DNA from: an uncultured Bacteroidia bacterium
GTDB lineage: Bacteria; Bacteroidota; Bacteroidia; Bacteroidales; UBA932
Length of the DNA: 64,000 bases
Reading direction: 5' to 3'
Assembly: GCA_902797435.1 (NCBI GenBank)
Contig: CADBSV010000029.1
Span: forward strand, 35,648-99,647
Below, piece by piece: positions 35,484-63,964 of the stretch. Numbering within the stretch: position 1 is the first letter of the stretch; every line of letters begins with the position of its first letter. The notes beneath the pieces were generated by a model, which did no database searches, had not been told where the DNA came from, and saw only the letters and a list, made by a program, of their open reading frames with translations. The translations under genes and the position numbers were made by a program.

Positions 35484-35493
35484 TTTCCCCCAT

Positions 35494-35595
35494 CTAAAGT
35501 GCCGTTAACGTGCACAAAGACATGCACGTTAACAGCAAAATCGGCCAAAAGCGCCGTTAACGTGCACCAAAATCTGCACGTTAACGGCACTTTAG
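35494..35595. repeat. RAYT element 1, left double-hairpin repeat
   Basis: Two tandem hairpins: GTTAACGTGCA (8-base loop) TGCACGTTAAC, then GCCGTTAACGTGCA (8-base loop) TGCACGTTAACGGC. The 21-base outer ends, 35494-35514 and 35575-35595, are also perfect inverted copies of each other, so the whole unit is a nested dyad. The core 35501-35591 matches 36851-36941 at 88 of 91 positions in the same orientation. It also sits right after the comEA-like stop and could act as a terminator. Confidence 0.9.
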
Positions 35596-35609
35596 GAAGG
35601 GAAAATCCA

Positions 35610-36476
35610 TCAAAAAGCCTCTACCAGACTGCAGACATCCGGATAGGGGATTCCGGTAACGCGCGACAACTGGGCCAAATCCGCGCTGAATCTGAAACGA
35701 AGCTGTTTCAGCATCTCGGATTTCTCGGGATCGGACAATTCTTCCACAGCGGTTTTTCTGAAAAGTGAATGACACAGGTCCGAAAGTCCCGACAGTATCA
35801 CGTGATCCCTGAAAGACGGCATGGCATCCATCGCCATACGGTTTTTAGCCTTGAACGAATTGTTAAGAAAAAACTGGAACCGCTTCGGTGATCTGAACAG
35901 GTTCTCAACAAAGCTCACAGGGACGTAACTGCCTGGGTTTATGAATCCTTCATGAGTCAGCATATAATCCGGGGGCAACTGTACGTTACTGTGAATCTGG
36001 CGGATACACTCTCTTTGCGAGAGAGAAGAAAGCGGCACCCCCATGGCAGACCTCCGGGGATAAAAAAAGACGGAACCACATCCCCAGGGGTACTGTGAAG
36101 GGTGCGTGCAGATGTTGGCCGCGACACAATTCATATGGACATAGGCGATCGCCCGTTCCAGGGACTCATTACAAGCGCTTGTTTCCCTGATGTCCGAAGT
36201 ATTGCCGCGAAGATACTTTGCAAGACCGTATTTATTGCGCATATACTTGCTATACAGCAATTTGAAGTAGTCTATGAATTGCCTGGCCCCTTCTGCGCCT
36301 GCCTGCACGACAAAATGGACATGATTGGACATGAGAATGAAATTCAAAACCTTTATCCTGCACACATAGGCGGCAACGGCCACCATGTTCATCGCAGCTT
36401 TGAAATCATCCTCATCCTGAAACCATATACGGTCTTCAAGATGGCTGGTGCTTATTAAGTAGAAACGCTTCTGCAT
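35610..36476 (-). CDS. REP-associated tyrosine transposase-like protein (Y1, HUH)
   Basis: 288-residue protein related to IS200/IS605 Y1 transposases. It starts MQKRFYLISTSHLEDRIWF, the usual beta-strand start of these enzymes. FILMSNHVHFVV carries the HUH metal-binding pair (HVH). A following helix, FKLLYSKYMRNKYG, supplies candidate catalytic tyrosines. A C-terminal helix-turn-helix-like segment (LAQLSRVTGIPYPDVCSLVEA) is present. Longer starts exist (TTG 36545, ATG 36521), but the ATG at 36476 lies 1 base after the upstream gene's stop and starts the conserved domain. It should cut and join single-stranded DNA at the flanking hairpins (inferred). Confidence 0.82.
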   Translation of the reverse strand: MQKRFYLISTSHLEDRIWFQDEDDFKAAMNMVAVAAYVCRIKVLNFILMSNHVHFVVQAGAEGARQFIDYFKLLYSKYMRNKYGLAKYLRGNTSDIRETSACNESLERAIAYVHMNCVAANICTHPSQYPWGCGSVFFYPRRSAMGVPLSSLSQRECIRQIHSNVQLPPDYMLTHEGFINPGSYVPVSFVENLFRSPKRFQFFLNNSFKAKNRMAMDAMPSFRDHVILSGLSDLCHSLFRKTAVEELSDPEKSEMLKQLRFRFSADLAQLSRVTGIPYPDVCSLVEAF

Positions 36477-36477
36477 A

Positions 36478-36831
36478 CTAACTGCATTTGTTGCCTGTCC
36501 CTGAACCGGGGTAAATAACATGGATTTCTTCTCCGGCTTTTTCAAATTCTTTTCTAACCGTGTTCAAGCACTCTGCAAGATATTCAGAACCATGTTCCAA
36601 CTGTTCGAGCATTTCTTTCCGGTTGACACACAAGGAAAGGTCTGCCAGAGTCAGTGCACGCAATACTGCCAGAACGGACATTTCATTTCCACCCCAGAGA
36701 TTTGTGGCCATTGAAAACGCAGCCATTGAGGAGATGTTCGGAATAGCCTCCGGATACAAGTTTACGTCGATATCTGTATCAAAACGGATTTCACCGTTCT
36801 CGTTTTGAAGAACTTCAAGTATTTTTTTCAT
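36478..36831 (-). CDS. Unknown 117-residue protein inside RAYT element 1
   Basis: No family recognised. The sequence begins MKKILEVLQNENGEIRFDT, has a central stretch AAFSMATNLWGGNEMSVLAVLRALTLADLSL that is mildly hydrophobic and helical, and a charged helical second half (RKEMLEQLEHGSEYLAECLNTVRKEFEKAG). No signal peptide. The ATG is 20 bases from the right-hand repeat, and the stop is followed after 1 base by the transposase ATG, so the two genes form an operon enclosed by the repeats. It could be an accessory or regulatory partner of the transposase, or an older host gene trapped in the unit. Confidence 0.7.
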   Translation of the reverse strand: MKKILEVLQNENGEIRFDTDIDVNLYPEAIPNISSMAAFSMATNLWGGNEMSVLAVLRALTLADLSLCVNRKEMLEQLEHGSEYLAECLNTVRKEFEKAGEEIHVIYPGSGTGNKCS

Positions 36832-36850
36832 ATTTCGGATTAATATTACC

Positions 36851-36941
36851 GCCGTTAACGTGCACAAAGACATGCACGTTAACAGCAAAATTGGCCAAAA
36901 GTGCCGTTAACGTGCACCAAAATCTGCACGTTGACGGCACT
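36851..36941. repeat. RAYT element 1, right double-hairpin repeat
   Basis: 91-base copy of 35501-35591 with three substitutions, in the same orientation. The first hairpin is intact (GTTAACGTGCA, loop, TGCACGTTAAC). The second has one mismatch in the right arm (TTGAC for TTAAC). It lies 21 bases downstream of the recA stop and directly upstream of the unknown gene, so it may act both as recA terminator and as leader of the element. Confidence 0.9.
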
Positions 36942-36962
36942 AAGGGAGAATTCGAAAGGAGG

Positions 36963-56738: not shown

Positions 56739-56847
56739 CCGTGCCCGGCAACTATCCATCAATCAAGCATTTGCTTAAATTCAATTCGCTGATTTGACGA
56801 ATTGAATTTAAGCATCTTTCTAATTATTAATCACTTACTGGGCACGG
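56739..56847. repeat. RAYT element 2, left 109-base palindromic repeat
   Basis: Outer arms CCGTGCCCGGCAA (56739-56751) and TTACTGGGCACGG (56835-56847) pair with two mismatches. Inside them a perfect 17-base stem (56772-56788 with 56798-56814) has a 9-base loop, CTGATTTGA. The repeat aligns without gaps to 58492-58600 in the same orientation at 83 of 109 positions. Confidence 0.88.
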
Positions 56848-56905: not shown

Positions 56906-57877
56906 ATGAGCCATGTTGTTCGTGCCATACACATCTACCAGATGAGTAAAGGACGGAATGTTCTGTTCTATACCCGTCAGGATTACCTTGTGCTATTCAC
57001 CGTCATATCCGTCTGCGCGAAAAAACACGGCATCAGACTGCTTGGCCTGGCCATCATGTACAATCATCTGCACATCCTCATTGAAGAATGCGAGCCGCTC
57101 AGCGTGAGCCGTTTCGTTGCGGATTACAGCATAAAATTCGCAAAACTGTACAACGGCGAGCTCGGATGCAGGGGTCAGGTATTCCACCATCCTTTCGGAT
57201 CTGCACTCAAATATGGTGAGAAAAACATACGCACGGCGGCAGGGTATCTGTACAACAATCACACTAACAAAAAGTTGTGCAGCAGGGCAGAAGACATCCG
57301 GTGGAACTTCCTGGCCTACGCCCACAACAGTAACCCTTTTTCGGAGCCTCTGGTATTAAGAAGATCTTCCAAGTCCTTGCGCAATGCCGTGAAACTTGTC
57401 GGTCTTGAGCATGCGGCGGAAAGGCCCCTCAGCTACTCCATCCTCCGCAGGGCCTTCAAGAAACTCACCCCGCCTGAAAAGGAGCAGCTCATAGACCGCA
57501 TTATCGTTTTGTACAATATTATCGACTACGCTTCACTGGAAGGTCTGTACCGTTCTTACGAAGATATGCTGTATTCTTTTAATGCCAACACATTCAATGA
57601 ATACGACATTTCCGAAGAGGAAGAAGAACGCAAAGGGGATGACAGGGTATATATTCGGCTTTCTAAGGAGATTCTGTCTTCCGGTCGTTTTGAGAATCTG
57701 AAAGAAATCCTGCTTATCCCTGATGACCAGCGGCTTCGGCTTGCCGTTGAGTTGAGGGCGTCCACCGGCATATCATACAAATGCATCGGTGCATTCCTGC
57801 ATCTCAGGATTACCCGTGTGAAAAATGTCATATCCGGGGACGAAGCCCGCCTAATCGATGAAGCTTATGGACATTGA
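56906..57877 (+). CDS. REP-associated tyrosine transposase-like protein (Y1, HUH)
   Basis: 323-residue member of the Y1 transposase superfamily. The start IHIYQMSKGRNVLFYTRQDY is the usual first strands. The HUH pair is in LAIMYNHLHILIEE (HLH). FVADYSIKFAKLYNGELGCRGQVFHHPFGS matches the catalytic-helix region (Y, then N, G and a basic/GQVF stretch). A C-terminal helix-turn-helix-like segment (LRASTGISYKCIGAFLHLRITRV) resembles that of the element 1 protein, and an acidic run EEEEER precedes it. It should nick and rejoin the flanking palindromes as single strands (inferred). It overlaps the glycosylase gene by 20 bases. Confidence 0.82.
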   Translation: MSHVVRAIHIYQMSKGRNVLFYTRQDYLVLFTVISVCAKKHGIRLLGLAIMYNHLHILIEECEPLSVSRFVADYSIKFAKLYNGELGCRGQVFHHPFGSALKYGEKNIRTAAGYLYNNHTNKKLCSRAEDIRWNFLAYAHNSNPFSEPLVLRRSSKSLRNAVKLVGLEHAAERPLSYSILRRAFKKLTPPEKEQLIDRIIVLYNIIDYASLEGLYRSYEDMLYSFNANTFNEYDISEEEEERKGDDRVYIRLSKEILSSGRFENLKEILLIPDDQRLRLAVELRASTGISYKCIGAFLHLRITRVKNVISGDEARLIDEAYGH

Positions 57878-63193: not shown

Positions 63194-63964
63194 ATGACAG
63201 CTACCAAAGAGAAATATGCAGATGCCATACGCCTGTGGCAGGAGTGGAACGGGAAGATAAATGTCATCTCAAGACGCGATACGGATGCCATTTTCGAGCA
63301 CCATATACTCCATTCGCTGGCCATAGACGAATACCTGAAACGCTTTTATCCGCTTTCTGAGGATGAAGCCCTTTCGGGAGTTCGCCCTTCGGGCTCACCC
63401 CACCACCCCTGCGGGGCGGTCCCCCCGCTATCGGACCGCGGGTGTCACGTCCCTCAGGGGCTTCATCCCCAGAAGGCTGCCATGACTGTTCTGGATCTGG
63501 GATGCGGAGGAGGATTCCCCGGAATTCCGCTGGCCATGGAATGGCCGCAGGCACAGTTCACGCTGTGCGATTCGATAGGCAAAAAGGTAAAGGTGGCACA
63601 GGCCGTTGCAGACGGGCTTAAGCTTGGAAACGTGAAATGCATCCAGGCCCGCGCCGAACAGCTCCCCGGAACATGGGACCTCGTGGTTTCGAGGGCGGTG
63701 GCGCCTCTGGAAACTCTCTACGGATGGGTTCGGGACAAATTCACCGGAAGCCTTCTGTGCCTGAAGGGCGGAGACGTAAACGAAGAAATATCGCAGCTTC
63801 TGAGGCGATACGGCAAAGGCCGGTGGGCGCTGAAACCCGGCCAAATCCGCACATGGCGAATATCCGATTGGCTTGATGACGAATATTTTGCAGAAAAATT
63901 TGTAATTGAAGTCGGAAAATCCTACCTTTGCAGTCCCTTTGACGAAAAATATAAAAATCAATAA
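63194..63964 (+). CDS. rsmG: 16S rRNA (guanine527-N7)-methyltransferase with in-frame palindromic insertion
   Basis: 256-residue RsmG (GidB), about 45-50 longer than usual relatives. The N-terminal half (IRLWQEWNGKINVISRRD then FEHHILHSLAI) and the SAM-binding motif LDLGCGGGFPGIPLA (starting near residue 99) are normal. Between them residues about 54-95 are encoded by a 126-base palindromic element (63352-63477) rich in P, G, H and S. Downstream, CDSIGKKVKVAQAV and VSRAVAPL are typical. It methylates G527 of 16S rRNA; loss gives low-level streptomycin resistance. The ATG at 63194 follows the sigma factor stop by 1 base; a GTG at 63173 is also in frame. Confidence 0.9.
   Translation: MTATKEKYADAIRLWQEWNGKINVISRRDTDAIFEHHILHSLAIDEYLKRFYPLSEDEALSGVRPSGSPHHPCGAVPPLSDRGCHVPQGLHPQKAAMTVLDLGCGGGFPGIPLAMEWPQAQFTLCDSIGKKVKVAQAVADGLKLGNVKCIQARAEQLPGTWDLVVSRAVAPLETLYGWVRDKFTGSLLCLKGGDVNEEISQLLRRYGKGRWALKPGQIRTWRISDWLDDEYFAEKFVIEVGKSYLCSPFDEKYKNQ
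63352..63477. repeat. Palindromic element inserted in frame in rsmG
   Basis: The arms 63352-63371 and 63458-63477 are complementary at 18 of 20 positions, with a perfect 11-base core GGATGAAGCCC / GGGCTTCATCC. Between them lie further hairpins: CCCTTTCGGG (63369-63378), GCCCTTCGGGC (63384-63394), CCCCTGCGGGG (63406-63416) and CCCGC...GCGGG (63424-63428 with 63438-63442). The total of 126 bases is 42 codons without a stop. The composition (GC-rich, many CCC/GGG) is unlike the surrounding gene. Confidence 0.85.
63899..63930 (+). promoter_or_regulatory. Bacteroidetes-type promoter of rpmH inside the rsmG 3' end
   Basis: TTTG (63899-63902), a 20-base gap and TACCTTTG (63923-63930) fit the consensus exactly, 36 bases before the rpmH ATG. 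It lies inside the coding sequence for the last residues of RsmG. Confidence 0.75.

Follow-up and report, generated by a model that had tools for sequence, protein, structure and literature searches.

An in-frame palindrome in the rsmG linker

The window, a 64,000-nt stretch of Bacteroidales DNA, carries on its forward strand the gene rsmG (63194–63964), encoding the 16S rRNA m7G527 methyltransferase. The assignment is based on the open reading frame and on Pfam and NCBIfam profiles (Pfam GidB, E 2.6e-31; NCBIfam TIGR00138 at 97.5 bits, narrowly below its 99.5-bit cut-off). The frame begins at ATG 63194, is readable from GTG 63173, ends at 63964 and stays open through a palindrome at 63352–63477. 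A spurious ORF was considered and rejected, since the RsmG of homologues matches both flanks of the insert. The first-pass annotation had described a 126-base palindrome lying in frame within rsmG, with no stop arising and with 18 of 20 bases paired at its ends, and the analysis bore this out. By reading, 63352–63371 and 63458–63477 gave the same 18/20 count, while a mechanical palindrome finder returned 28-nt arms with 82% complementarity. Furthermore, the 146-nt stretch 63342–63487 has a folding energy of -73.2 kcal/mol, whereas its shuffles average -53.7 (sd 4.1, z -4.72), and none of 200 shuffles was as stable.

The insert extends the linker between the RFYP and VLDLG motifs, which by reading spans 45 residues here versus 7 in short-linker relatives such as L140. 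The insertion of about 42 residues expected relative to other RsmG proteins was thus found, with a net gain over short-linker relatives of about 38–40 residues rather than 42. An RsmG query matched 114 of 121 same-genus genomes, the match in G100 covering only the element. Among the matches listed, only those in the own genome, G079, G118, G120, G044 and G084 start before residue 60, and most begin at about residue 95–105, i.e., behind the insert. In an alignment with 27 of 30 fetched loci, from which the own locus and two N-terminally extended loci were left out, the insert sequence was absent from all other proteins; by reading, the linker is short in 22 of the 27 and longer but different in five (L132, L134–L137). 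AlphaFold2 with this alignment gave a confident fold (mean pLDDT 82.9) in which model residues 62–82, within the insert, have a pLDDT below 50, in keeping with the earlier placement of the insert in a loop. In addition, a second RsmG (by reading), on contig JAEEXQ010000001.1 (L117, approximately 480–660), has the element in the same linker, flanked by different arms, and RsmG was therefore apparently a target on more than one occasion.

Two Y1/HUH-like genes also lie in the window. The first, a RAYT-like gene at 35610–36545 on the reverse strand (NCBIfam REP_Tyr_transpos 41.7 bits, cut-off 80; Pfam Y1_Tnp 23.2, cut-off 23), has palindromes GCCGTTAACGTGCA/TGCACGTTAACGGC paired on both its sides (35484–35605 and 36846–36943), as in a REP-transposase unit. 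The second, at 56906–57877 on the forward strand (PF01797, 29.1 bits), is preceded by a 50-nt imperfect palindrome within 56739–56847. An element-flanked RAYT was sought and not found for these two genes.

A dispersed hairpin element and its host proteins

The rsmG insert is one member of a family of small hairpin elements dispersed in gut Bacteroidales. Its portion common to other copies, the conserved core at 63369–63460, lies in forward orientation as judged from copy matches and is read in frame as ...SGVRPSGSPHHPCGAVPPLSDRGCHVPQG.... The outer approximately 17 nt on each side are copy-specific: a left arm (63352–63368), defined by the fold, the palindrome finder and comparison of arms across copies, pairs with a right arm (63461–63477), defined by the fold and the palindrome finder. 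Across the family the core measures about 94 nt (exactly 94 in 54 of 86 copies; 86–133 nt over all 86), and the element about 126 nt with arms of about 19 nt each. A consensus structure from 42 diverse copies of the 86 consists of a closing stem followed by three hairpins. In rsmG these fall at 63384–63394 (GCCC/GGGC, two pairs in the consensus structure; position by reading), 63402–63420 (ACC.CCCC/GGGG.GGU; position by reading and consensus) and 63424–63442 (CCCGC/GCGGG; stem from the consensus), all on the forward strand. Folded alone to minimum energy, the rsmG copy pairs this inner core unlike the consensus. Paired changes, counted without a shuffle control, occur at several core pairs, e.g., at columns 36/44 (CG 27, UA 10, GC 3, AU 2). 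By eye, the loop triplet GAC of hairpin 3 (63434–63436) may form a candidate pseudoknot with GUC at 63444–63446, and by reading the motif CGTC lies within the outer stem of the element and not at the stem foot. As far as the copies show, the element does not code for a protein of its own. A known Rfam family was rejected, the only hit on the element in the window stretch and five loci being mir-296 at E 0.46; the same search gave a tRNA match elsewhere, off the element. In L023 (1501–1629) a smaller hairpin (GGGGCCCCCGGAAAATGACAATTTTC) is nested as an insertion inside hairpin 3, and the UvrA copies L277 and L278 contain extra in-frame sequence of a similar kind.

The own genome (1.87 Mb, 80% complete) contains five element matches at E <1e-15, located in rsmG, in RNase R, in a SpoU methyltransferase (a partial match) and, twice, in a tandem-repeat region adjacent to genes reading as ATP synthase subunits. 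In L015 (G000:C37, 600–1500), two copies sit in a degenerate-repeat array (GGGAGCAAAACCACCCCTTCCTGCACCCCG...) adjoining genes that read as ATP synthase subunits. At E <=0.001, matches occur in 17 of 101 same-genus genomes including the own (16 of 100 others), several of them partial or weak, and an exact degenerate pattern found 90 copies on 88 stretches in genome_contigs. The first-pass annotation would not have held if no other copy existed in related genomes; since other copies do exist, in the own genome, in same-genus genomes and in genome_contigs, and mostly within coding frames, it stands on this point. Record titles, available for 80 of the 88 stretches, name Bacteroidales, Bacteroidia or Candidatus Cacconaster throughout, and Rickettsiales are absent from these 80. 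The core had no blastn match in PLSDB or INPHARED and the exact pattern none in IMG/VR viral contigs, and a phage or plasmid origin was rejected on these searches.

Most copies with a classifiable context lie in frame within genes. Both flanks were available for 83 of the 90 copies, and a codon score trained on long ORFs, with the best frame compared on both flanks, assigned one coding frame across the element in 66 of the 83, of which 63 are open. The figure of 63 is a lower bound, since the codon-usage classifier missed at least one copy (L043, an in-frame AroK seen through the identical L304). The 63 copies use frames -a (30), +a (20), +b (12) and +c (1); two reverse frames, interrupted by stops in 73/86 and 77/86 cores respectively, are unused. 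The open frames give peptides rich in G, P, S and R. As tallied from the 25 commonest Pfam families, the 63 host ORFs include SpoU methylase (14), 5'-3' exonuclease/PolA (6), DsbD (5), RsgA (4), shikimate kinase (AroK; 4), UvrA (4), TruB (3) and the endonuclease/exonuclease/phosphatase family (3), among others. Where the element persists, it is mostly in loops and linkers of housekeeping proteins that tolerate it.

Other repeats share such sites. In the SpoU methyltransferase loop after CPE (L161–L190; 25 of 30 loci read), other species carry other repeat-like peptides (RPELVEGRS, CHSERSEESS, DVIPGLTGN, RDDNNEGAP, VIPSEAKESR), which suggests that several repeat families use this one tolerant loop. 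In L107 (3391–4149), an AroK with the element has another in-frame stretch near its N-terminus.

Copy-specific arms and turnover at single sites

The arms are site-specific and self-complementary. Within copies, the arm pairing score has a median of 18.5 versus 5.5 for mismatched partners, and 70 of 85 copies exceed the 95th percentile of the null while 15 do not; the null reaches a maximum of 24.0 because orthologous copies share arms. Five of the 90 copies were left out of this comparison, as no left end was available (L072 by motif; L061, L078, L090 and L113 by contig ends). Arm conservation falls off from position 12 on, and the pairing excess lasts to about position 30 (83 copies with enough flank). 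Some consensus is present at inner arm positions (GTA[CT] close to the inner end, 26 of 86), and some of the arm may thus be element sequence or reflect a preference for certain targets.

Among 86 distinct sequences, 178 pairs (38 elements) combine cores of >=96% identity with dissimilar flanks, the latter defined by an author-set identity cut of 0.62, set once. In these pairs, agreement of the outer arms between copies is 0.50 (random 10-mers, 0.46) and pairing within copies is 0.80, the latter value taking the better of two registers; the list includes one UvrA–UvrA pair in opposite orientation (L018/L092). The clearest case is provided by G100, whose copies in UvrA (L018) and RsgA (L034) have identical cores and unrelated arms. 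The RsgA arms are nearly the same in G381 and G100, with one paired change, both genomes being about 89% identical to G380 over the region; drift alone therefore fails to explain unrelated arms on identical cores. These observations bear on a reading in which the insertions are old and vertically inherited, selection on structure holding the core while the arms evolve fast by compensatory change. The conserved multi-hairpin core with its uncontrolled pair changes is consistent with that history, as are the arms held in common by three orthologous DsbD copies. The near-unchanged RsgA arms set beside the unrelated arms of L018 and L034 nevertheless speak against it, as do positions and orientations that differ between related species, and old vertical insertion appears very unlikely.

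Opposite orientations and scar-like remnants do occur at the same sites in related species. In RsgA, G380 and G232 have the element in reverse, G381 and G100 have it forward, and G000 retains what seems to be an eroded remnant. In UvrA it is reverse in G380, G098 and G166, forward in G100, G374 and G120, and scar-like in G381. In AroK it is forward in L085 and G329 and reverse in L306, L307, L107 and L099, with scar-like sequence in G374 and G044 and no element in G098. The AroK span from IER to LSLGGG measures 54–55 residues in filled copies versus 18–21 in three empty ones. The net length over empty sites varies between cases, so that insertion and flank replacement are not separated. Three features go beyond what had been annotated before: arms specific to each copy, an orientation that changes from one related species to another, and the presence, in the same loops, of scar-like remnants and of other inserts that resemble repeats.

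The same sites give some view of how the arms arose. By reading, the left arm of AroK resembles the empty site in G044/G098 and the right arm does not, whereas in UvrA of G380 the novel arm is the left one, the right arm lying on conserved codons that G100 also has. A nucleotide test for an ancestral arm in AroK, covering three distant empty sites and 18 comparisons with six filled copies (four with near-identical arms), was negative for both the left (0.50, null 0.48) and the right arm (0.46, null 0.47). The direction of arm copying rests on few cases. One account holds that a plain insertion came first and that quasipalindrome template switching later homogenised the flanks around the core and flipped the spacer. 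For yeast coding DNA, template switching that inverts spacers and homogenises arms in this way is described in the part of the source available (PMC8604942), and by reading the left arm of the G100 UvrA copy differs from that of G380 at positions that improve pairing. On the other side, the pairing of 70/85 copies above the null, together with paired arms in near-identical-core copies, points to arms that formed during insertion or shortly afterwards, which makes a purely later origin of the arms rather doubtful.

Proposed origin and relation to known elements

We consider it probable that the family is a dispersed hairpin element whose arms are made by foldback template switching on its own target flank. 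Paired arms that differ from one sister copy to the next, the two orientations and the scars are all accounted for by this proposal. A nascent strand, having already copied the core, would fold back on the hairpin, would be extended by about 10–19 nt with its own target flank as template, and would then return to the original template, leaving flank X, the core and X', the reverse complement of X. Later, the same chemistry would homogenise the arms, invert the core or delete it, and copies in frame would be kept by selection where a loop tolerates them. The identity of cores between copies could, however, be due to selection and not to recent spread. A precedent is provided, in the available part of the yeast study (PMC8604942), by coding DNA in which a template switch between inverted repeats homogenises arms and inverts spacers. 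A more tentative extension concerns the mode of mobility: a hairpin joined to its target at one end might self-prime on the target flank, so that each insertion would leave an inverted rather than a direct target duplication and host replication might suffice without a dedicated transposase.

A dedicated enzyme would be involved if a single-strand Y1/HUH, RAYT-like transposase mobilised the element and picked GGTAYT-like targets, the arms then being pre-existing target palindromes. PF01797 is matched in all 17 element-bearing genomes versus 61 of 84 without the element (Fisher p 0.011, with kinship uncontrolled), and REPs nested in palindromes are reported from other bacteria in the portion of the source at hand (PMC3733652). 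The domain is, however, common (78 of 101 genomes), and some of the element matches are weak. Moreover, the rsmG copy is the only one found on the window's contig, so that neither Y1/HUH-like gene of the window is flanked by the element; one of the two is flanked by a different palindrome pair, and the outer arms lack a strong consensus. Mobilisation by such a transposase is possible but appears unlikely, and foldback template switching is the preferred origin.

Among known repeats, Rickettsia palindromic elements (RPEs) have a length of about 100–150 bp. They are palindromic, dispersed and in frame within ORFs, according to the part of the source available (PMC3733652). The Bacteroidales element is likewise a dispersed palindrome, in frame in conserved genes whose relatives are without the insert, but it belongs to another phylum, has copy-specific arms and a three-hairpin core, and is likened to RPEs by behaviour and not by sequence. 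By analogy it appears to work like them, and the RPE-like label of the first-pass annotation is apt in that sense, as an in-frame, dispersed palindromic element in a low-confidence loop. MITEs are small and dispersed and have inverted arms. The element resembles them in size, dispersal and arms, but has no terminal repeat in common beyond the core end, its outer arms being unrelated between copies, and no direct target-site duplication of >=8 nt flanks the rsmG copy, the one copy examined in this respect. GTAG/CGTC REPs, as described in the available part of the source, are 20–40 bp long and mostly intergenic, also occur inside genes including uvrA and DNA polymerase I, and lie in some cases within larger palindromes (PMC3733652). 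The element shares with these intragenic REPs a palindromic repeat inside genes, uvrA and DNA polymerase I included; unlike them, it has a core of about 94 nt, is mostly intragenic, occurs in few copies per genome and lacks a tetranucleotide tag at the base of the hairpin. Quasipalindrome template switching offers a further likeness in arm homogenisation and spacer inversion in coding DNA, but is described, in the part of the source available, for native inverted repeats, whereas here the element is dispersed (PMC8604942). A human microbiome study gives, in the portion available, palindromic RNA candidates in Bacteroidetes (PMC8040213). A literature search, not exhaustive, turned up neither a description of this family nor one of in-frame palindromes from Bacteroidales, in agreement with the earlier statement that none was known.

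If the interpretation is true, mobile palindromes make new protein segments in housekeeping genes in a second lineage, one distant from Rickettsia. Some ninety copies are available for comparison, and since each has paired arms of its own, the chemistry by which such elements insert can be put to the test. In addition, the turnover within single loops, by insertion and inversion and with scar-like remnants, would constitute a natural record of how linker residues are gained and lost.
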